DNA of 64,000 bases from NCBI RefSeq assembly GCF_002234675.1, contig NC_019870.2:2314985-2378984 (forward strand), given 5' to 3'. The notes beneath the pieces are model-generated. The model was not told the DNA's origin and made no database searches. It saw only the letters and a program-made list of their open reading frames with translations. Source of the stretch: Oryzias latipes (taxonomy: Eukaryota; Chordata; Actinopteri; Beloniformes; Adrianichthyidae). Below are positions 1,255 through 57,682 of the stretch, piece by piece. A program made the position numbers and the translations under genes. Numbering within the stretch: position 1 is the stretch's first letter; every line of letters begins with the position of its first letter.

Positions 1255-1946
1255 CTACTATGTATCCGTGGCTCTGCTGATTTACTTCCTGCCCCTGTGC
1301 ATCATGGGATGGGCGTACATCACCGTCGCCGTCACCCTCTGGGCGAGTAAGATCCCCGGCGACTCGTCGGAACACTACAGACAGCAGCTGGTCGCCAAGC
1401 GCAAAGTGATGTGAACCGCCTTGAAGTATGACGGACTCTTGCTCCGGGGCGCAGGTTTGAATCCCGTCTCTCCCGTCAGGTGGTGAAGATGATGATCGTG
1501 GTGGTGTGCACTTTCGCCGTCTGCTGGCTGCCGTATCACGTCTACTTCCTGCTGCACCAGTTCTTCCCCGAGCTCTTCGAGCAGCTCTACATCCAGCAGG
1601 TGTACCTGGCCGTCATGTGGCTCGCCATGAGCTCCACCATGTACAACCCCATCATCTACTACTGCCTCAACAGCAGGTGCGCCGGCTGTGCCCTCGCCAA
1701 ATGGCGTGCTGGCGTTTGTCTCGCCGTTCACCCTGTGTAATCTCTGCCTTCACCAGGTTCAGAGCAGGTTTCCAGCAGGTGTTTTGTTGCTGCTCCTCCA
1801 GCGCCGCCAAAGAGGAGCTGGAGCTCAAATCTCCCCGGTGTCTGCAAACCCAGGTGGGTCCCAGAACCGCTTTTCCCGCCTCATCTGCTGCTCAGGCGGG
1901 AGGTGAGCGGCCAGATGAGACCTCGACGGCGCTCTCATCCTGTTGA
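1255..1946 (+). CDS. Tachykinin (neurokinin) receptor, 3' exons (partial gene)
   Basis: Class A G protein-coupled receptor for substance P/neurokinin-type peptides, acting at the plasma membrane. Exons: 1255-1405 (151 nt), 1480-1676 (197 nt), 1757-1946. From memory, the 151 and 197 nt lengths and phases equal those of mammalian TACR exons 3 and 4. Exon one covers TM5 ([12 protein letters not shown]) and the third loop ([12 protein letters not shown]). Exon two begins VVKMMIVVV and holds TM6 with CWLPYH and TM7 with [15 protein letters not shown]. The tail begins FRAGF, has a CCC palmitoylation-type cluster and the family phrase ELELKS followed by CLQTQ, which resembles TACR1 most, so tacr1-like is favoured without excluding tacr2 or tacr3. 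Reading through, the tail stops at TGA 1944-1946, shorter than mammalian TACR1. Earlier exons are outside the window. Confidence 0.88.
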
Positions 1947-10693: not shown

Positions 10694-13600
10694 CTTCACT
10701 TTGTGATGGACCACGGACGCCACGACGACGGTGACGAGGCCGAGCGCGATGAGGAGGTACTGCATGTACTCCATGACGGTCGGGAGGACCACCAGGTTGG
10801 TGCGGAACGTGTTGAGGACCGGTCCATCGATGTAGCCGCTCTGTTGGCGACAGGAACGCACAGTCAGCAGTTTTCAAAACCTTTATCGACACAAACACAA
10901 GTAAACAAACTAAAGTTTACGTGTGTGTGTGTGTGTGCACAAACACACATAAGTAAAACTGAAAAAGGAAATGAAAGAAAAGAGGTAAATAAAACTCAGA
11001 AGCTGATAAATTGACTTTTTTTTCTCAACAGGTGAACTTCATTTCCTCCTACAGCAGCTGATCTTCTGCCTCCTCTACAGACAGAACTTCTGATCCTGAT
11101 CTTTCACCTGAACCCGTCCCGTTCGCTCCTCCCAAACCTTTTTCCCTGTCAGCTGACTCGCCGTCTTTCAGAGACAAACTGCAAACGACGCAGGAAAAAA
11201 CTGTTCTGCCTAAAAAAGCAGGAAGTTCCTCTACAGAAAAGTCTTTGCTGCGTGACTTCACGAAGAACCACAAACATCCGCGACCTGCGGTCCAACAGGA
11301 AATCCAAACGGCTGCGTCTTTGCCCAGCTGTTTTCAACCACAGGAAACGACTTTATATTTAAAAAAAACATCCAAACTGTTTAAACTTGATTAATGATTA
11401 AAGTGATTAAAAACACACTTTAAAAGGAACACTTTTAAAGTGATGGACTTTAAACAGGAGAACTGCTCTAGAATAGTGGATCTATATCCTTTAAAGTGAC
11501 ATTTTTTCAAAATAAAAGATTTCAAAAGTTAAAAGTTTTTATCACTTCTAAGGAAATTAAAGTCTCTCCAGAGGATTTATTGTTTATTCTAGAAGGAGAA
11601 TAATAGTCAAAACTCTCTTAACGTGTCGATTATTTTCCCAAAAATCTATTTTTTTTTTAAAAAGAAGATGCTAAATCTGTTTTTACATCTGTCATTATTT
11701 CTTTAATGCTTCAATGAAAATGAGGATTTGGCAGAATTCTGAAGACAGCTAAAAAATATATAACAAAAGTGATTTAAAGTGACGCCAACTGGCTAAAAAA
11801 TATGTATAGAAAGGACTGAAATAACATTTATAAACCAGGCTAAATCTTTGTGCTGCATCTTACCTCCTCGAACCACAGCAGCGGCATCACCACCTCAGAA
11901 ATCTTACCAGTTTCACTGAAAGAATGACAAAAACACACACAAAAACACACACAAAGGTGCAAGAAAAGCAGGAAATTGTCACCGGCTTTGAATTAGAGGA
12001 AACACAATTCATGAGAAAGTTGGAAATAATCCTCACGTGATTCCTGAAACGCTTTTAATGTAGAGGTTGAGCTGCAGGCGGATGGACACGTTCAGAGGAA
12101 CGCCCGTCAGCTGCCAGAACACAAACCCGCAGATTATCAGACCTTCTTTGAAAGTCTCCAAACAGTTTTTAAAAACAACAAAAGAAGGAAATTCTCAGGT
12201 TAGGAAGCTTCTTTTTATGGTTTGGTTCCACCATCAAGCTGCAATAAAGCTGTGAGATCCAACAATGGGAACAAAGACGCATCTTGAACTTCTATCAGCT
12301 GCAGGCCGTCCAGGCCTCAAGGCTGCAGGAGGCGTGAGGGAAGCAGGTCTGATTCCCAGAGCAGCCACTCTTCCTCTGTCACATCTGCTAAAGACGCACA
12401 GTTTCTGTTCAAATCCCTGTCCTGCCATTCCTTCTCAACGGCAAACGTCAGAGCAGGCGGCCCAACCCAAGTCTACATTACTGATGATGACCGATGATGA
12501 AGATGAGGAGCAGACTGGAGTCTTCAGGTCTTTTCTTTAAGAAGATCAGGAGTCGAAAACTCCAAACAAAACTACTTTCACAAATTCTGTTTCATGTTTT
12601 AGAGCGACAATAAAAGAAAAAAATAGACATGAGAACAAAGTCATACAACTATTGGAATAAAGTTATGAAATGATGAAAAAGGAAATTCGAAATCTTACTA
12701 GACTAAAGACGTACAATTATGAGAATAAAGTTGACATTTTACCAGAAAAAGGCGTAATTTTCAGTCTGAATACATCCAAACGGACCCTGGTCCTGGACCA
12801 GGAAAACCAAACCTAAAGTTGAATCGTTTCTGAGGAGAGCAGCAGTGGTTCGTCCCAAAGAGTGTAAATAAAGATCCTCCATGAGAGGAGATCTGCCTCT
12901 GATGCTCAAATCTTTCTGTTCAATCAAGCTTTGACAGACGCCTGAGAATGAACCCGTGGAGGGAAAATCCTCCTCTTCTATCCGTTTATCCTGGTTGCTG
13001 CACAGGAATTCCTCCCAGCTTCTCTGGATTTTGAAAAGTTGTTGGATTTAAGGAAACGTTTTTTTCTTTTTAGTTTTTTTTTTTTTTGGATACATTAATC
13101 GCTTTTTCTTCGACTTTGCAAAACGTCCAGGATTCCACTTCCTGTTTAACAATGAAGACATCTTTTTTCCTCCTAATGATGTGTGGATGCGTTTCACTGC
13201 CATGTCTCTGCATTTCCTCTAATCATTGATTATAGAAAACTGACATTTGACATTTGCTGAAGCTTCAGGTCGGAGGTTTTCAGGGACGAACGGTCTACAG
13301 ATTCAGATTCAGACGGTAGAAAAACATCATAAGCAGGATTGTGTGGGATCATTTCAGGACGAGACGTTTGGAAAGACTCGAATCGGGCTTCAGCCCGGAT
13401 GGGCTTTGGGACGACGCTCTCCTGAGATGCAGGCTCCACCCCCACCGCCAAACTCTGTGCGTCGCTGCAGGAGGACCGAGTCCGTCAGAAAACCGGGTTA
13501 GGTGGCATCAACCCAACAGTCTGATGGGAGGCAGATGTTCGGACGGTTCTGAGCCACACTGACGAGGCTTTTGGCTCCTTCTCCCTGAAGTTCAGCAAAT

Positions 13601-16600
13601 GGTCAGAAGACGCCAGAAAACTCGCCATAAAGGGTGTAGCTGACAGGAAAATGACAGCCCAAAGAGGCTCTGAATGGCAGCCACGGAGCAGATTGGGTCC
13701 ATATGCGGTTCTGATGGACAGTTAATCCCGTCCAAAGCGGACACGAGTGGCTCAGGATCAGGAGGAGGAATGCAGCTGCAGGCGGTTCTCCGTGCAGCTT
13801 CGGATGAAGGAAAACAGGATTTACTGAATAAACAAAGAAACTCGGAAAATTATTTTCATCTAAAAGAAAAGAGAATTTTCATTTCTTAGGCTGATAAAAC
13901 TAAAAGCATTTGAAAAAATGAATGAATTTGGTTTTAAATGCAGATGTTAAGAATAATTTGGTTTTAACAGCAGTAAAAATTTAAAAGATTTATGTTTAGT
14001 ATTAAAAAAAATTAAAAATCATGTCTATAACACGGACACACTGTGGCTTAAAATAGAACCAGAAACACGGAAAGAAATTACAACTAAGATCACGCCTTTG
14101 TTTTTACATTCACGATAAAATTTGTTTTAAAAAACTTTGTTTTGTTTTTTAATTGAACACATTACATTTTTTTAATCGAATACAATGTTTCCGTATAAAA
14201 TTCCTCATGGATAAAAAAATGAATCAATTCCTTTTGGTAAATCAGGTTTAATCAGATCTTAATGTTAAAAATATGTTTTTGTGCTAAATAGGGATTTTAA
14301 ATGTCAAAGTTTTAAGGTAAAAACCACATTTTCAGTCCTCTAAATACATTTTAACAGGAAAAATAAATGGATTTTTAAAAACATGTCTGCCGTTAGAAAA
14401 GTCTGAATTTTTTCTTTATTATATTTTGTCGTGGCTTATAAGGCTGAGCGGTTTCTGCAACAGAACATTTCTAAAATTCAAAGAAGCTCTTTCTCATCCC
14501 GTTTAGTGAAAAACGGTTTGGTATTTTTTAAAAACCACAAAGGAGCTGAAGATTCGCCTGCAGGAGGAGTCGAATCTGCAGATCAGCTTTCTGGAGAAGC
14601 TCCCAGCTGAGATTATCGGGTTATTTCCATTCTTCTTTCAGACTCCACTTTTCTTTTTCTTCTTCTTAAGTGACTTTATTTCTACGTCTACGCTCACACT
14701 ACAGTCAGTCACTCAGATAATTGTGTGGCAGTTGGATTTGAGATGTGCGGGTTTCCGTTTTCCCATCATGCAAATGTGTTTCCTGGATCGTCCCGATTGA
14801 GTGAGTGAGCGAGTGAGTGAGTGGGCGTGAGGGCGGACTGAAGGAACCTCTCCTGAGCTTCGATCTGCACACGCCGGCTCCTTATCCAGAGCCGCGCTAT
14901 GAACGGCCCTCATTACGGAACCTTATCGCAGCTTCCAATTACCTTATCGGCTGTGGCGCGAGCGATAAGGGGCAGCGGGCTGTTACGTAAGGAGGCGGCG
15001 CCGTTTGGTAACAGCGTTCTGTTGGGTTAACTGCTTCACATCAACAGGCGGAGCATCGAAACCGTCGGACGTCTCAGCTGCATGCCCCCCACCCCCTCCC
15101 CCCGTGCAACTCAGGGAGCGGCGCCGGGACCAGACGCGTTCCATCGCGGACGCCTCACGCTCTGAGCAAAGGACACAAGTTCTTGGACGACGCCGGACTA
15201 AGATGCTCGGTCCAGAACGCCATCAAGAACATTAACCCCCCCACCCCCACCACCCCACCTCATGAGACCTCCTTCTGCTGGAGCGTCTGACGCTACCAAA
15301 CATCTGAAAGGCATCAAACCCCTGTGAGCTTCTGCACACCCAACAGAAGGAATCCAGCAGCTTTGACGGCGAAAGGAGGAGGGGGGGGGGGGGGGGGGGT
15401 GCTCACCGGGTGGATGTCGATGAAGAGGCCGTGTTCCTCCTCGGTGGGATTCAGACCCAGCACGTAGTCCTGCAGCACTGGGTCGGCGTTGAAGAAGTGG
15501 GGATGGGAGATGAAGACCGGAGAGTCTGGAGAGAAGAGAGGAACCTGAAAACGGCGAGGATCTGACCCCGGATGATCGGACGGAGAACCGCGTTCAGATC
15601 AGGGTTGATTCTGGTTTTTTAGACACATTGTCATGACGAATCTGCTTGATCAAATGAAAAACCCAGATTATAAAAACTAACTCCTTAGCTCGGAGCTGGA
15701 GGAGCAGAAACTCCAGTTTCTCTGACAGAGTAATCAGATTACTTCATCCTGAGGGTGCAGGAGATCATCAGCCACGTTTTGAGCGCAGCACACACGTGAC
15801 AAGTTCAGAGTAAATATTTGTTGACCTTCCAGAGCGTGCGGGACCTAAATGTAAAGACGACCTTTGGGGCGCCGGCGTGCGCCAACTCACTGTGGCGGCA
15901 GCTGCTGACGTTCAGAAGACCCGACTGCCTGCAGGGGCAGAACCCCTGGTTGGGCTCGTACTGCGACCCGTTGGCAAACATGGTCCTTGGCGCCACGAAC
16001 CTATACAGGGGGATCCCCAGCATCTCGCCTGTGCGCTGGTAAACCAGCTCCAAGGATCTGAGCAGGAACAGGAAGTGACAACGTCAGGCTGAGGCGGGAG
16101 GCTGCGGGGCAGGAAGGCGGTTCACCTGCAGGCGTCGGGGCTGTAGAAGGGTAAGGTGCTCTCTTTGGTCATGAAGGGAGGCCACATCTGTCCGGCTGTG
16201 CCGTTGATCATGTTGCACTGGGGGGTCCTCCAGTAGCTCAGCTGTTGAAGGGGGGACAGTCAGATGGGTCACATGACAGGGAGACGGGTGGCGCCGACAC
16301 CTCACCTGGGTCAAACCGTTCCAGGAGTCGACTCTGTGGACCTTCCTGATGTCGTCTTTCCCCGTGTTGATGGTGAACAGGCCGGTGTTGGAGTTATTGA
16401 ACTGAAAGCACGACAGAAACGTTTAAAAGTCACAACTTCCACTGAAAATCCTGTTTTTAACGTGTTCCTGCTGCATTTTTCTGATGATGGAAGACAGAAA
16501 TGTTCAAATTAAGCTTAAAACTGCATTTACTGAGTATTTCTTTATTCAAATCGCTGTGAATCAGACCAAAAGTTTCTTTATAAAGATCGTATTTGTGACA

Positions 16601-19600
16601 TAGAAAGCCCCCTGCTCCGCTCCGTTCTGGTCCCGCCCACTGAACTCCTGCCGCTCTGCAGAAACTATGTCCTAGAAAACGACACAGGTTTACGGAGTTT
16701 GGCTAAAATCGGCATAATTCTAATGAAAAGACGACTGGGAACGCTTTTTCAAATAGATCGGAGAGGGACTTTGAGGTCCTGTACGGAGAAAAGGTTTTCA
16801 GAAGGAACAGCAGCTCCCATCCGTTTAAGTCAATCGTCCCGTTTAAAGGTGTTTGTCTTGTAACCCTTGTGCTGTCTTAGGCACTGTAACATTGGGAGTG
16901 GGGTCATCTAGACCCACTAGACAGTGCTCTGAACCTTTTTTCTTCAATGATTTGTGATCTTCACTGGTGTCCATGGATTACATGAAATCTTTCCACCTTT
17001 ATCCACCTTTGTCATGGTAGGGAGAACACCTCAATGGAAGCGTAGGGTCACCTGGACCCCATAGGACAGCACAAGGGTTAAACATGAATATTTGTTATGG
17101 TTCAATTGTCATTCATGAGTTATAGACTGATCCTGATCACTCGCGTCTCTGCTGCCTGACAGGAGTGTTTTGGTCTGAGATGCCCCGCCCACTTTGAAGC
17201 GACCAAACCTATATTCCCATTTTGGACTCGTCTGTGAAACCTTCAACCAAAATCTTGGTCTCGTGTTCTGAGCAAATGCTGATCTCTGCAGTCACACTTC
17301 CTCACACGTGTTCCTTTTTAGACAAAGTTCTGCCCCATTTAAAGAAACTGGTTTTAAAAAGGGAAAGTTACCCCGGAGTCTCTGTCCCTCAGCTGAATCT
17401 CGTGGAGAACCCCTCACCTCGGCGAAGAGTCCAAACTTCCCGGAGGAGGGAAGCATGCCGGGCAAGTACTGGTTTAGGAAGTCCACCAGTTTGCTGTCAT
17501 AGCCCCACATCAGCTCCCCCACCGTCTTGGTCAGGAAGGGACCCTCTTTGAAGGTCTTGAAGGTGGCGCTGATCAGCAGACGCAGGGCGTAGGGCAGGTT
17601 CTCCATCATCACGGCGGCACTCTGCAAAACACAGCCGAGCGTGAGGAACCAACCGCACAAATTTGGGAGACGTCCAGCGGTCGCCCGGGCCTCACCAGAA
17701 CCAGCATGTTGGGAACCGTGACCAGGTCAGACTCGTTCCCCACAGACATGGACGGCTCGAAGTAGTAGGTCCGGTATTCTCTGTAGGACACTGTGTAGTT
17801 GGGGTGAAACGTGATGTTCTCTTTCTGGCAGCGCTTCCTGGAAAACACAAAGGAAACTCCTGGTTTTCAGGAAAGACGTTGGTTCCTGAGAGGTTCCAGG
17901 CTGCCTCTTTCTCAGCCTTTCAACGTTTCTAAGCTGAACAATCTAATGCGGTTTCTGCTGATCAAAGAACCAAGGAGGTCCACCAAAACCACACGACCTC
18001 CACAGATCAGAGCGCTGGCAGAAAGGCCCACCACCTCTATGTAGATTCAGAGGACAGAAACCTTCAAGCAGCAGCACCAGTTTCTGTCAGACTTTGGATT
18101 TCTTCCTGGGTTTGACCAAAGCCTCCGGTCACAGACGTCATCACGACCTTGACCTTGGTGCAGAGGAGAAGTGGAGCCGATATATTTGATTTCATATCTT
18201 TTCAAGGCTTTCGGGTTGGAGCCTCAGACTTGACATAAATTTACAGCCCGTATGATTCTGGATTTGCAGATCTAGATCTTTACAGTAATGTTACGTCTTC
18301 TTAGGGTGATGTCACACATATTGCACTGGTGCTTTTTCTTACGTGGAAAAAGTAAAAAAAGTTGGTCTTTGCGTGAAATTTTCACAGATCAGGAATGACC
18401 CACAGAAGAAGTACGAATAAAGCACGGAAAAAAAAAACACCTAAACTAAACGAGAACTTGAACCATGTGTTAAAATTGTGCTGTTTAAATGCAATTTATA
18501 TGCGATTCGTGAATCAATAACGTAATTTGAACCCGATATGTGCGCGGAAACGCGATATTAAAGTTATACATTGGTGGTTCATGCGTGAAAAGTCCATCAG
18601 ACAAATGTAGAACCGTCGTGGAAAGACACAAATTTGCGTCTGCATTTCACGAAAAATCTCACGCAACCGCGTAAAGATTTACGTAATACTTGAGTATAGG
18701 CTACGTCAAATACGCGTAAACGCATAACTTTACACTGACCTAAAATTTTTAACAACCTAAAACCGAATTCATTGGACAAAACCCTCGACGGACATCTGTG
18801 CACATCGACGAACGCAGAAAACACGCTTGGCTCACGAAAGAACGTAACGCCATACGTGGAAAATGTGTGACGCGGCTTCCACAGCCTGTTTCTGAACGAT
18901 GGACGGAGCTGGATGGACGTGTTGGTGCAACAGGGACACAGGCGTGGAGCGTCCCGTCCCGGCGCACCTGTACACATAGGGGCCCCTCTGCTCCACCATG
19001 GGCTTCTCTCCTTTCAGGACCTCCTCAGGGTTCAGGACGTTGAAGAAGTAGACAGACATGAAGAAGGGCACGGGCAGGTCCTTCCACATGGTGTAGGACA
19101 TGTCGTTCTTCGGGTCGATCATCGTGTTCTGACAGAAACAAAAAATACAAAGTAAAAATTAAAAAAGGGGGAAAAAAGCATTTTTGGTTCTGAATCCAGA
19201 ATCTATTGAATCGTCTGGATTTGCACATTTCGGTTTAATGTCAAGACATTTGAATAAAAGAAATGAAGACAATTCAATGAATTTGATTAAGTGTGAGAAC
19301 ATGTGTCAGGGCTAAACCCTTTCAGCAGTTTTAAGGTCAGTTTTTAGGTCTATCTTCGTATTTTTTCTAATTATTCTATCAAGAATTGGATTTGAATCGG
19401 CCTAAAAACGGTCGGAGTCATTATTCGAACTGAGGTCTGTCCCGGTCCCGAGAGAATAAAAAGCGGGAAAAGAAGTGAGCCACAAAACTGGGACATCCCG
19501 CACGTTTCTACCCCTTTAATCATATCTATGCGTTTGAACAGAGATAAGTTATCTCCGGCAGCGATGCATCAGAAAACAGAACCAGGAATTTGGATCTTAT

Positions 19601-20068
19601 TTGGAAAACATCCGCGTGTTCATGACTTCTGCGACAGTAATTTAGGTTTCGTCCCATTTCTGTCACTTTTATCTTGGTATCTTCCATTTCCGTTAGTGGA
19701 GGGTCAGCAGATTTGACCGTATTTTGGGGGTTGCCTCATTCATTTTACAATAGCATTTTAGAAAATAACGTGAATTTTTTTGTGTTTATCTGACATTTCT
19801 CGTAATAAAATAATTTTTGAAAATATTTTTTACAACATTTCTACACCTAAATTGCACTTTATCGATGCTTTTATTTACAGACGTGAAGATTTTCTTCGCA
19901 CTTCTAAATAAATTCGAAGTACTTTGGCGGTTCGGTGGTTCCGCTTACCTTCTCCACCTGGTCGTCGATGATGATCGGACCCACAAAAACCAGAACGGTT
20001 CCGAAAAACACCATCAACACACCCGCCACGATGAAGCCGGCTGTCAGCCTGGCTTTATTTACGCCCAT
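10694..20068 (-). CDS. scarb1: Scavenger receptor class B member 1 (SR-BI, HDL receptor), exons 1A-11
   Basis: CD36-family plasma membrane receptor that mediates selective uptake of cholesteryl ester from HDL and, in fish, probably carotenoids. Exons in transcript order: 20068-19949, 19128-18968, 17837-17696, 17621-17418, 16401-16306, 16241-16126, 16057-15891, 15525-15407, 12110-12037, 11915-11864, 10840-10694. All junctions are GT/AG and phases join without a break to give 466 codons. Lengths 119, 74, 52 and 147 nt for exons 8-11 match human SCARB1 as I recall it. Seen: N-terminal TM (exon 1), SVYFFNVLNPEE and RGPYVYR (exon 2), AAVMMEN and TVGELMWGY (exon 4), CNMINGT (exon 6), FCPC and LNVSSC cysteines (exon 7), FISHPHFFNADPV (exon 8), and the C-terminal TM with MEYMQYLLIALGL (exon 11). 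The cytoplasmic tail exon, expected to be about 40 residues ending in a PDZ ligand, was not identified. Confidence 0.93.
14881..14970. promoter_or_regulatory. Cluster of four GATA sites in scarb1 intron 8
   Basis: CTTATC occurs at 14881-14886, 14922-14927 and 14943-14948, and GATAAG at 14964-14969: four GATAAG cores, on both strands, within 90 bases. The surrounding 200 bases are CpG-richer than the rest of the intron. GATAAG is the consensus of GATA factors. An intronic enhancer is an inference. Confidence 0.45.
15381..15399 (+). repeat. 19-base G homopolymer beside the scarb1 exon 8 donor
   Basis: Nineteen consecutive G on the plus strand, which read as a C-run starting eight bases into intron 8 of scarb1 on the transcribed strand. 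The donor GTGAGC itself is intact. Confidence 0.85.
16498..16790 (+). repeat. MITE family B, internally deleted copy in scarb1 intron 4
   Basis: Contains 'gatcgtatttgtgac', 'ctctgcagaaactatgtcct' and the right-end phrase 'atagatcggag' followed by 'agggactttga', all shared with 50491-51018. The central part is shortened. Confidence 0.65.
16860..17081 (+). mobile_element. piggyBac-like MITE (family A), copy 2, in scarb1 intron 4
   Basis: The left end reads taacccttgtgctgtctta, with the TTAA decayed to GTAA. The right end reads aggacagcacaagggttaa with intact TTAA. The interior 'gtcatctagacccactag' is shared with the copies at 4431 and 61590. Confidence 0.8.
18306..18882 (+). mobile_element. 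MITE family C, longest copy, in scarb1 intron 2
   Basis: Shares blocks with 23737-24006, 52246-52680 and 61160-61298. The family ends are an inverted repeat of the type AAGGCCGTGTCACAC, best preserved at the left end of the 52 kb copy and the right end of the 61 kb copy; here they are decayed to 'gggtgatgtcacac' and 'gtgtgacgcggc'. The interior is unusually rich in CpG and in ACG/CGT words. No coding frame survives. Confidence 0.6.
19949..20068 (-). CDS. scarb1: scarb1 first coding exon 1A (proximal)
   Basis: Forty codons beginning MGVNKARLTAGF and ending DDQVEK, followed by the donor GTAAGC in phase 0. It contains one hydrophobic segment (residues about 8-33), the N-terminal membrane anchor of CD36-family proteins, and aligns with the mammalian SR-BI start that ends QQVLK. 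The ATG has G at -3 and +4. No TATA box was seen upstream. An upstream in-frame repeat of the VNKAR codons lies at 20096-20110. Confidence 0.85.
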
Positions 20069-21188
20069 GACAGTGACAGTTCGGCAGAACCGCGCTTTGT
20101 TTACGTCCAAACTTCAGCCGAGCGGCACCAGCGAGCTAGCTTCTCTGCTTCTCCACCTTCAGCACCACCTGCACACTTTCATGGTCACCCAAAGTCCACT
20201 TCTGCACCGGTTTACTCCTTTGATCACCGTTGCCGACCTTCTGATGTTGTTGCCCCATTTAAAGTCTATTAGTGGTGACGCTTTCGACGCGCGAGGAACT
20301 CTGGGAAATGTCGTTCATCTGATACAAGTTAGATAATTTTTGGAATTTTTAGAAGATTTAAATGGAAACACATCCTGGACAGCCAGTTATTATTATTATT
20401 CTTTTTTTTGTTTTGTTAAAAAAGATTAAAAAAAATATTTTTTTTACAATAAATAAAGTTTTCCACAAATTATTTAAATTAAAATAAACCAACAATGGCC
20501 CTGTTTAAAAAAATTATTGTGTAGGCTTAGTATTATACTACAACTTTTTTAAGTAAGCTTTTTTTTTACTACTACATCAACACAACATAAGTGTGTTTTA
20601 CTTTATAACATTTGATTAGCATTTCTGCTACTTCACAGATTAAACATTAGCCACATTTATGAGAAGCTGATGCAGTTTAGACTTTTGCAGCGGCGATAGC
20701 CCCTCGTGATATAGCTGACAAAGATAAATGTTTGCTTTAGCTGTTTGCTTTTTTACATAAAAACAGGTGCAATCATATTATGATCTGCGCCACAGTTTCT
20801 TATCTGATAAATGGAGAACGTCAACTGCTGCTTGATAGTGTCATAAAGATAAGTCAATGTTGGAAACTTAACACCTACAATAAAAAATAATCAACACTGT
20901 AAATGACTTTGAATGAGTAAATCCTTTCAGCTCGATCTGCCGCACAATGAAATCCACCAAACTCAGCTGTCAATATCTCGGTAATATAACTCATTTATGA
21001 CCTTCAGTGACCATAGGTCATGTGACAAACAGACTTTTCTAGGTCTGCCACTATAATAACAGTTTCACAATTCCTCTAAGGTGGATGTCATGATGCTCCC
21101 ATAGTAACCTTTAGTCAGGGAATATATATATATATGATCCATGGGGCAATGCAAAAGTACAGATTATAGTTATTTCAAGAAGTTCAGC

Positions 21189-21510
21189 TCACAACAAAAA
21201 CAAAAAACAGCAACAAGGGAGAAAAAGAGCAAAAAAATAAAAGAGACAACTAAAAACAGAACGGGAAAGAACAACAAAATGGCCAAGAAAAAAAACAAAA
21301 GCAGCAAGAAAAATTAAAAGTAAAAGTAAAACAAAAACGAAAATAAAAAATAAAAAGAAGAACAAAAATAACAAAAACAATTAAAGAGAAATAAATAAAT
21401 AGATAAATAAATAAAAACAACAACCAAATAAAAACAATAACAAAAATAACAACAACAGCAAAGTAACAACACAAAAAAGAAGCATATAAATGACAAAAAA
21501 AACATGTTTT
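21189..21510 (+). repeat. A-rich, T-poor low-complexity tract
   Basis: About 320 bases built mainly of AACA, AAAC and AAAT words with few T. The open frames on the opposite strand (poly F/L/V/Y) are products of this composition, not genes. Confidence 0.8.
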
Positions 21511-23001
21511 ACATGGTAACTTCTGGATTTTCAGCTTTACTTTTAAGCAGAACTCACCGTTCCCGCCTGAACATTTGCTGGAAAAAGCATCTTTTCTGAA
21601 ATAGATTCTAACCTGAGGTTCACCTGTTTAATAAAATGACTCTGGAGAGAAAAGAATCCTCAATCGCCACACTTTGAAGGGAAACCAGTGTTTGTCTTGA
21701 CTCATTCTTGAGAGGAAAAGAGGAAAGGGACACAGTTTTTTTTGTCTGATGAAGTTCAAAAGAAAGAAAACCAGAATAACCTTCACCAGCTCCAAAAACC
21801 CGGTCCAGGCCTGGAGGCTTTGGAGAGCAGAAGCCTGCTGACGTAAATCCAACAGCCTTTCCTAAACTCCTTTCACGTCTCAGTTTGACAAGTTGATGTT
21901 TCTCCTCATAGAAGTACATTTTGACATTTTTACAAAAAGCTAGTGTTTGCTCGTCTGCACTGCATCTGTTTGGAGTCTTCTGGGCTCTCAGCGTTTTCCG
22001 TCACAGAGAAACGAGCGACGCCAGGATTTGGCTCCGGTTTCATATGAGATGACTGGGAGACTGTGCAGCTGAGAAACGTGGATCATATGAAGCAAACTAG
22101 TGATCCAAACCGTTCTTACGACTCTGCAAATGAGTGTTTGGAGGAAACCGATCCTGTTTTCACGGTGGTTTGATAAAAGAAGCGGCAGCGGTGACAATGT
22201 TTCCACAAAACATCTCACAAAAGCGTACAACTTTAGCTGGAGCAAAGAAAGAATTTAGAAACCCATGTTAGTAAAAACACATGAAAAGTTAACATTGATG
22301 ACATTTTTGGAAAAAAAAGAATCCAGTTGAAAGTTTGTTAATGAGACAGATTTAAAAAAAAAAAGGTTTGTCAGATAAAATAGTTGCATTCACACAAACA
22401 TGTTGTTATATTAATCCTCATCAGACACAGTTTTTAGAGTCATTACTTTAAAAATAACAAGAATCTTAAAGATAATACCATATATGACACTGTCAGTACA
22501 TTAGATTAATTTCTATAATGATGTTTTGGTTATGATTAATGTATTTATTTATCATTATTTTGTTTTTATTGTTATTTTAAATCAAAAAAGATTTTAAATT
22601 AATAGATTTGTTTACTTTTATACAGTATTTCCAGTTGTATATTGTCTTTTACCTCTTATGTACTTTTGAGTAGTTATTAAAATTAGTTTGTTTTTTCCTC
22701 TATAATATTGACCTGCTAGGGAAGTACGGGTGTTAATTAGCCTGTGGCTAAAATCCAGCATTTTTATTCTTAATTTTCCCCGTTTTAATAAATAAATATT
22801 GAAACTTTTTGCCAGGAACCACTTTTTTGTCTTATCTTACTGCTTTTGTAAGTTTTTCTCCTTTTTTGTCCATTTTAAATTCATTTTAGAACAATTATTT
22901 TGTCATTTTTATCCGTGACCTTTGACCTTTTGAGGTTCACGCAGCAGCAGGAGGAGGACGCTTTTGGGTTTCAAACCTGCAAACCGCCTCAGGGGACTCA
23001 C

Positions 23002-23121
23002 CTTCCCGACCTGGTACCTCATCATAGCCGGTCCCGTGAAGGCAGAAATAAGTCCGAACGTCAGCGTCACGGCCCCCGCCGCCACAAAGCCGATGGCTAC
23101 TTTGGCTTTATCGATGGCCAT
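23002..23121 (-). CDS. scarb1: scarb1 alternative first coding exon 1B (distal)
   Basis: Forty codons beginning MAIDKAKVAIGF and ending MMRYQVGK, then the donor GTGAGT in phase 0: exactly the length and phase of exon 1A 2.9 kb downstream. The two proteins align along their length (both have K-A-K/R at residues 5-7, GF at 11-12, AG, FG, GP at 30-31 and QV.K at the end), so the exons are duplicates. The start codon lies in an ACCATGG context, and CCAAT, GC and TATA boxes sit at 23201-23250. Splicing to exon 2 (19128) would give an SR-BI with a different N-terminal anchor. An alternative is the remnant first exon of a lost tandem gene copy. Confidence 0.7.
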
Positions 23122-23200
23122 GGTCAGAAAAACCAAAGATGTGACGGACAGAGCTGCTGAAGACCAGCAGAGACACAGCAGCAGGGCTGGGGGGGTGGGC

Positions 23201-23250
23201 TGCTTTTATGGTCCAGCTCCTCCCGCCCACCTCCATCCTCTCCTCATTGG
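23201..23250 (-). promoter_or_regulatory. scarb1: Core promoter of scarb1 exon 1B: CCAAT, GC box, TATA
   Basis: Read on the minus strand: CCAAT (ATTGG at 23246-23250), GGGCGGG (23222-23228) and a TATA-like CATAAAAG (23203-23210). The order and spacing are those of a standard RNA polymerase II promoter. A start site about 30 nt on, near 23175, would leave a 5' UTR of about 55 nt before the ATG at 23121. Confidence 0.6.
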
Positions 23251-24011: not shown

Positions 24012-24440
24012 TGAGTTGGAGATGCTCATCCACGCTTTTATTTCATCTAGTCTTGATTACTGCAACTCCATCTTCACACGCTTCAGCAAAAACTCTTTAG
24101 AACGGCTCCAGGTTGTCCAGAACTCTGCTGCAAGGCTTTGAACGAAATCATCCAAGTTTTCACACGTCACCCCGTTGTTAATCCAGCTGCACTGGCTCCC
24201 CATCCTGGTTTTAACACACACAGCTCTTAATAGCCAAGCAGCGGTCTACATAAAAGACCTTTTGCAGCCGTACACCCCCAGCAGGTCCCTGAGGTCATGT
24301 GACCCCAGACTTTGTAAGACTGTGAGAACTGATCTGCAGCTCACAGAGCAGACTCACCGCCTGGTATGAACACGTCGGCTCTACGAGAGGCAGGAGAACC
24401 GCGGAGAACTGGAACATGAGGATTTAGGTTAAAGAAGAAT
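24012..24440 (+). mobile_element. L2/CR1-type LINE reverse transcriptase C-terminus, decayed
   Basis: Plus-strand frames give MLIHAFISSSLDYCNSIF, LERLQVVQNSAARL, LLIQLHWLP and PYTPSRSLRS, the typical C-terminal landmarks of fish L2-like ORF2 proteins. Stops and frameshifts interrupt it, so it is a dead 3' fragment. Confidence 0.75.

Positions 24441-32002: not shown

Positions 32003-45155
<13,153 letters not shown>

Positions 45156-46894: not shown

Positions 46895-57682
<10,788 letters not shown>

Follow-up and report, generated by a model that had tools for sequence, protein, structure and literature searches.

Two homologous candidate first coding exons of scarb1 in medaka

Results

A pair of candidate first exons on one gene

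The minus strand of a 64-kb stretch of the medaka (Oryzias latipes) genome, hereafter the window (C12:2314985-2378984; genome 734,051,031 bases, 25 contigs), carries a gene of the CD36 family that is probably scarb1, encoding SR-BI, as judged from the initial annotation, our own reading of the sequence and a match to a salmon primer. We propose that two homologous first coding exons, 1A and 1B, serve this gene in a mutually exclusive way, each behind its own promoter, and we give this arrangement a probability of about 0.77. The homology of the two exons, the intact frame, phase-compatible donors, a family-like N-terminus and a match to promoter consensus are directly observed. Exons are numbered along the gene and coordinates are positions within the window; slashes mark exon-intron boundaries.

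23002..23121, minus strand: exon 1B, proposed alternative first coding exon; 40 codons, phase-0 donor AAG/GTGAGT
19949..20068, minus strand: exon 1A, probable canonical first coding exon; 40 codons, phase-0 donor AAG/GTAAGC
18968..19128, minus strand: exon 2, predicted to be common to both forms; acceptor TGTTTCTGTCAG

Exons 1A and 1B are homologous at the protein level

Exon 1A encodes MGVNKARLTAGFIVAGVLMVFFGTVLVFVGPIIIDDQVEK (20068-19949, minus strand) and exon 1B encodes MAIDKAKVAIGFVAAGAVTLTFGLISAFTGPAMMRYQVGK (23121-23002, minus strand). The two sequences align without gaps, with 15 of 40 residues identical (37.5%) and a BLOSUM62 score of 83; among 200,000 shuffles of 1B with the start methionine held fixed, none attained either that score or that identity. 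A tblastn search of the whole window with 1A (E ≤ 1, composition correction and low-complexity filter off) returned only 1A itself and 1B, the latter at E = 1.8e-7. In the 734-Mb genome (E ≤ 10, two candidates scored per search), each exon matches only itself and the other (E = 0.032 from 1B to 1A and 0.025 from 1A to 1B), which suggests that scarb1 exon 1 was duplicated locally to give 1B.

At the DNA level, 71 of 120 bases match (by codon position, 24, 26 and 21 of 40 at the first, second and third), and local alignment of the exon DNA does not reach significance, 36 of 300 shuffles being equally good, so the claim of homology rests on the protein level. No homology was found between the upstream flanks (91 of 300 shuffles equally good), which, together with the weak exon alignment, suggests that the duplication is old. 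A match between the intron flanks is AT-rich and is reached by 3 of 300 mononucleotide shuffles; we treated it as low complexity. Judged from the protein comparisons, 1A and 1B are homologous and derive from a local duplication of exon 1.

In-frame stops lie ahead of both ATGs (codons -31 and -16 for 1A, codon -29 for 1B), so both exons read as true N-termini. The donors are GAGAAG/GTAAGC for 1A and GGGAAG/GTGAGT for 1B, the latter at exactly the homologous position; by our arithmetic, the chance of a full GTGAGT at one fixed site is about 5e-4. Because exon 2 begins at 19128 behind TGTTTCTGTCAG, both exons join it in frame, in phase 0. Exons 2-11 (19128-10694) were assembled with canonical GT-AG splice sites, and the open frame is 466 codons with either first exon. 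The initial annotation had described two 40-residue exons that share a residue pattern along their full length and end in phase-0 donors fitting exon 2. Translation and the donor and acceptor sequences confirm their positions, lengths and phases, and the ungapped alignment with its shuffled controls bears out the shared pattern.

Exon 1B resembles a CD36-family N-terminus

The assembled protein comprises one first exon plus exons 2-11, with the C-terminal exons past exon 11 outside the assembly. It matches the Pfam CD36 family (PF01130, cut-off 26.5 bits) at 545.7 bits with 1A and 538.1 bits with 1B. Exons 2-11 alone score 525.6 bits, such that 1A contributes a gain of 20.1 and 1B a gain of 12.5. 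When ten shuffled versions of 1B were joined to the same exons, they scored 527.0-531.2 bits (gains of 1.4-5.6) and none attained 538.1, suggesting that 1B encodes a family-type N-terminus beyond its composition, though a weaker one than 1A. Each form matches nine distinct PDB sequences at E ≤ 0.001, namely those of LIMP-2/SCARB2, CD36 (platelet glycoprotein 4) and SR-BI. In this comparison, which sets the 1A form against the 1B form, each with exons 2-11, the alignment to the CD36 chain begins at residue 7 with 1A and scores 285.2 bits; with 1B it begins at residue 11 and scores 273.7 bits.

The maximum 19-residue hydropathy is 2.65 for 1A and 2.03 for 1B, and four aligned glycines (G11, G16, G23 and G30) are present in both. 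PMC4030837 reports conserved glycines in this CD36 anchor and states that such glycines serve SCARB1 oligomerisation and selective lipid uptake. We predict that 1A and 1B encode N-terminal transmembrane anchors bearing the glycines of the family.

Comparison with salmon points to 1A as the canonical exon. The SCARB1-2 forward cloning primer given in PMC3118963 encodes VGPIIID by our translation, which agrees with 1A at 7 of 7 residues and with 1B at 2 of 7. A second salmon primer from this source, whose encoded start is MNKSKLAIG, is slightly nearer 1B (5 of 8 aligned residues, versus 4 of 8 to 1A). The primers start at cDNA positions 281 and 358, which by our arithmetic places VGPIIID in the register of 1A, given two fewer N-terminal residues. 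On these comparisons, 1A is probably the exon that is canonical in teleosts, with 1B as an addition, an assignment that draws on one other species.

The two exons lie behind different predicted promoters

23182..23250, minus strand: predicted 1B core promoter; CCAAT at 23250-23246, GGGCGG at 23228-23223 and CATAAAAG at 23210-23203, all as consensus matches only
23122..23180, minus strand: predicted short 1B 5′ leader of some 58 nt, free of upstream ATGs
20069..20368, minus strand: 1A promoter region; CpG-rich, TATA-less

A CCAAT box, a GC box and the CATAAA-type element CATAAAAG stand in a row within 48 bases upstream of 1B, the last of them 89 nt ahead of the ATG, and a start site would be expected near 23180. 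The nearest upstream ATG, at -115, lies beyond this predicted start, and the start codon of 1B has a full Kozak context (ACCATGG). At 1A, no TATA-like match ([TC]ATA[AT]A[AT]) was found at up to 250 nt from the ATG. The observed/expected CpG ratio is 1.02 at 1A (19949-20368, exon included), higher than the 0.59 of 1B and the 0.66 of the window as a whole. A CCAAT/GC/TATA-type promoter and a strong Kozak start had been proposed for 1B, and these hold as consensus matches; the absence of an evident TATA element at 1A, also noted then, holds within the 250 nt searched. The broader suggestion of two N-terminal anchors under two promoters stands in part: the homology, the family-like N-terminus of 1B, the in-frame fit and a TATA-like element within 250 nt at 1B only all agree with it, and production of the two isoforms is predicted.

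Perfect AGGTCA-A-AGGTCA direct repeats (spacer 1) occur at 22916-22928 (minus strand) and 38481-38493 (plus strand), and two exact plus four one-mismatch sites give six such sites in the window, against 0.26 expected. We take this repeat to be of the HNF4/PPAR nuclear-receptor type. The copy just inside the 1B intron (22928-22916) was rejected as evidence, as the motif is enriched generally in the window. An open frame at 24142-24366 (plus strand), about 1 kb beyond the 1B promoter on its upstream side, resembles a fragment of a fish long interspersed nuclear element (LINE) reverse transcriptase.

A model for first-exon choice

In the arrangement that we propose, an old local duplication would have copied exon 1 together with its donor. 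The copy nearer to exon 2, 1A, would be the canonical one, served by a promoter that is rich in CpG and lacks a TATA element, and the distal copy, 1B, would lie 2.9 kb further upstream behind a compact CCAAT/GC-box/CATAAA promoter. Transcription would begin with one exon or the other according to the promoter chosen. A transcript that starts with 1B would skip 1A, since no acceptor is evident by eye for 1A and an in-frame stop precedes its ATG by 16 codons, and would splice to exon 2 in phase 0. Inclusion of both exons in one mRNA was set aside given this stop at -16 and the lack of an evident acceptor between it and the ATG. The resulting two SR-BI isoforms would share the same ectodomain and differ in the cytoplasmic N-tail, the first anchor and the membrane-exit segment (IIIDDQVEK in 1A versus AMMRYQVGK in 1B). 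Since G11, G16, G23 and G30 are kept in both, both forms should insert and oligomerise as SR-BI does. Transcription of 1B, its splicing to exon 2, its tissue specificity and the behaviour of the two anchors in the membrane are thus the predicted parts of this model.

Weighing the model against its alternatives

Several observations weigh against use of 1B as a first exon or weaken points in its favour. Taken by themselves, the two 40-residue exons give no match to the Pfam CD36 family at E ≤ 10, for which reason both were scored joined to exons 2-11, and the PDB LIMP-2 alignment starts at residue 34 with 1A and only at 50-51 with 1B, such that 1B contributes nothing to it. The extended donor AAGGTRAGT is expected 1.33 times in the window by chance and is found once, at 1B. 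The composite CCAAT/GC-box/CATAAA pattern likewise occurs once, against 0.01 expected from shuffles, but was written after viewing the 1B site itself. GC content at third codon positions is 0.72 in both 1A and 1B; because GC is also raised just outside 1B (0.59 in the promoter, 0.52 in the leader and 0.52 in the first 100 bases of the intron, against 0.27 at intron bases 100-400), this is weak evidence of coding use. Substitution rates by the Nei-Gojobori method (NG86) give a nonsynonymous rate (dN) of 0.52, a synonymous rate (dS) of 0.86 and a dN/dS of about 0.6, from 40 codons, too few for power. Neutral simulations, in which the 49 differences between the exons (30 transitions and 19 transversions) were placed randomly in 40,000 sequences each way and the stop-free ones scored, add to this list: about half of the sequences remain stop-free, so the intact frame alone says little, and at least 15 identical residues are kept in 6,705 of 19,947 simulations from 1A and 5,683 of 18,537 from 1B, so plain identity is not above the neutral expectation. 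Finally, the frame, ATG and GT would survive neutrally on one branch, at 0.3 changes per site, with a probability of 14% by substitutions alone.

The low evidential weight of the open frame, the unexceptional identity and the dN/dS ratio are also what favours 1B being a decaying relic, either of exon 1 with its promoter or of a whole tandem scarb1 copy that has lost its other exons, that is now unused or serves only as transcriptional noise. We nevertheless consider such a relic unlikely, for at a Jukes-Cantor (JC) distance near 0.59 the ATG with its full Kozak context, the GTGAGT donor, the promoter cluster, the family-like residues and conservative substitutions all persist. A BLOSUM score of at least 83 is reached in only 115 of 19,947 stop-free simulations from 1A and 77 of 18,537 from 1B (about 0.5%), indicating that the differences between the exons are conservative, in a test that is silent on whether 1B or only 1A bore the constraint. 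If half of the distance accrued on 1B, the 14% survival applies to it, and this falls to about 0.4% if 0.1 indel per substitution is assumed. The dN/dS ratio and the score simulations lend no more than moderate support to selection on 1B. As for a tandem copy, tblastn with the assembled protein (E ≤ 1) found no second duplicated scarb1 exon and no remnants of others in the 64-kb window. A Pfam CD36 scan of the genome gave 29 stretches, in the window gene and four other loci; as far as parts of them were read, those at C12 10.5 Mb, C12 14.8 Mb and C9 look LIMP-2-like and that at C23 CD36-like, and none looks like a second scarb1. A whole tandem scarb1 copy, of which 1B might be the leftover, as the initial annotation had proposed to test, is thus unsupported by the window search, the genome scan and the reading of these loci. 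On these results, partial duplication of exon 1 would be the simplest history.

Two further explanations were weighed. One is that 1B is the first exon of another gene and is spliced elsewhere. Genome-wide, at E ≤ 10, 1B resembles only scarb1 exon 1A, no CD36-like coding sequence other than 1A was found between it and exon 2 (tblastn, E ≤ 1), and the CD36-like exon that follows is scarb1 exon 2, whose phase-0 acceptor matches, making this very improbable. The likeness of 1A and 1B could also reflect convergence, as both are transmembrane-like and short hydrophobic segments easily come to look alike; the genome-wide E of only 0.03 and the insignificant exon-DNA alignment leave room for this. 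We find it scarcely credible, since composition-keeping shuffles never attain the protein score and the sole match in 734 Mb is an exon 3 kb away with the same orientation, length, start and splice phase. Collections of viral and of bacterial/archaeal contigs yielded no confirmed relative of the assembled 1B protein.

Remaining exons and other features of the window

The remaining exons of the assembly were placed by splice sites and tblastn; the donors of exons 3, 7 and 9 were shifted on inspection by 1, 3 and 1 bases, respectively.

17696..17837, minus strand: exon 3, donor moved one base
17418..17621, minus strand: exon 4
16306..16401, minus strand: exon 5
16126..16241, minus strand: exon 6
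15891..16057, minus strand: exon 7, donor moved three bases
15407..15525, minus strand: exon 8
12037..12110, minus strand: exon 9, donor moved one base
11864..11915, minus strand: exon 10
10694..10840, minus strand: exon 11, carrying the second hydrophobic segment

Elsewhere in the window, an open frame at about 1432-1737 (plus strand) reads like what we take to be the end of a tachykinin-type G-protein-coupled receptor. Open frames at about 39900-42940 (plus strand) resemble exons of a G-protein-coupled receptor kinase, and others at about 47510-49464 (minus strand) resemble those of an ASH2L-type protein. At 32617-33588 lies a minisatellite in which a 24-base unit is repeated about 39 times (82% matches).

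Discussion

SR-BI transports carotenoids and the cholesterol of high-density lipoprotein (HDL). A part in oligomerisation and lipid transport is ascribed to its first membrane anchor by Gaidukov et al. (2011) and in PMC4030837. One can imagine that promoter choice yields two functionally distinct receptors, the 1A form expressed broadly and the 1B form driven by its TATA-like element in particular tissues, and that the altered anchor and exit segment would change oligomerisation, trafficking or cargo preference (HDL cholesterol versus carotenoids), though we regard this functional split as doubtful. If the two-exon arrangement is real, it would provide a natural receptor pair differing only in the anchor, allowing the function of this segment to be tested without artificial mutants, and would show that in fish the form of SR-BI is controlled at the promoter. 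Measurement or deletion of fish scarb1 based on exon 1 could then miss one isoform. PMC6966818 describes an influence of scarb1 on fish body colour.

Among the papers listed in our search of the open-licence literature, we found no description of alternative coding first exons of scarb1; an automatic gene-model annotation may already exist. The mechanism is known from other genes.

CD36 has several promoters and non-coding alternative first exons that leave its protein unchanged, whereas 1A and 1B would change that of medaka scarb1. For CD36, a gene of the same receptor family, PMC4030837 describes alternative transcripts. Within scarb1 itself, the SR-BI/SR-BII pair (PMC9771820) likewise comprises two isoforms of one gene that differ at one protein end; SR-BII differs at the C-terminus through skipping of exon 12, whereas the medaka forms would differ at the N-terminus through promoter choice. 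Atlantic salmon also shows diversity of scarb1, and its SCARB1-2 primer encodes VGPIIID as in 1A, but according to PMC3118963 SCARB1 and SCARB1-2 are paralogous genes, 89% identical over residues 1-462, in place of two first exons of one gene. If the functional split imagined above holds, one exon in medaka would divide what salmon may divide between two genes.

A close parallel is with multiple variable first exons. In the Ugt1/Ugt2 and protocadherin clusters, as described in PMC2819257, tandem homologous first exons of near-equal size have their own promoters and are spliced separately to constant exons. Medaka scarb1 is alike in carrying tandem homologous candidate first exons on the same strand and in the same splice phase. 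It is unlike these clusters in having two such exons only, strongly diverged from each other, in that they would vary a membrane anchor rather than a ligand-recognition domain, and in that splicing of 1B to the common exons is here predicted from the sequence.

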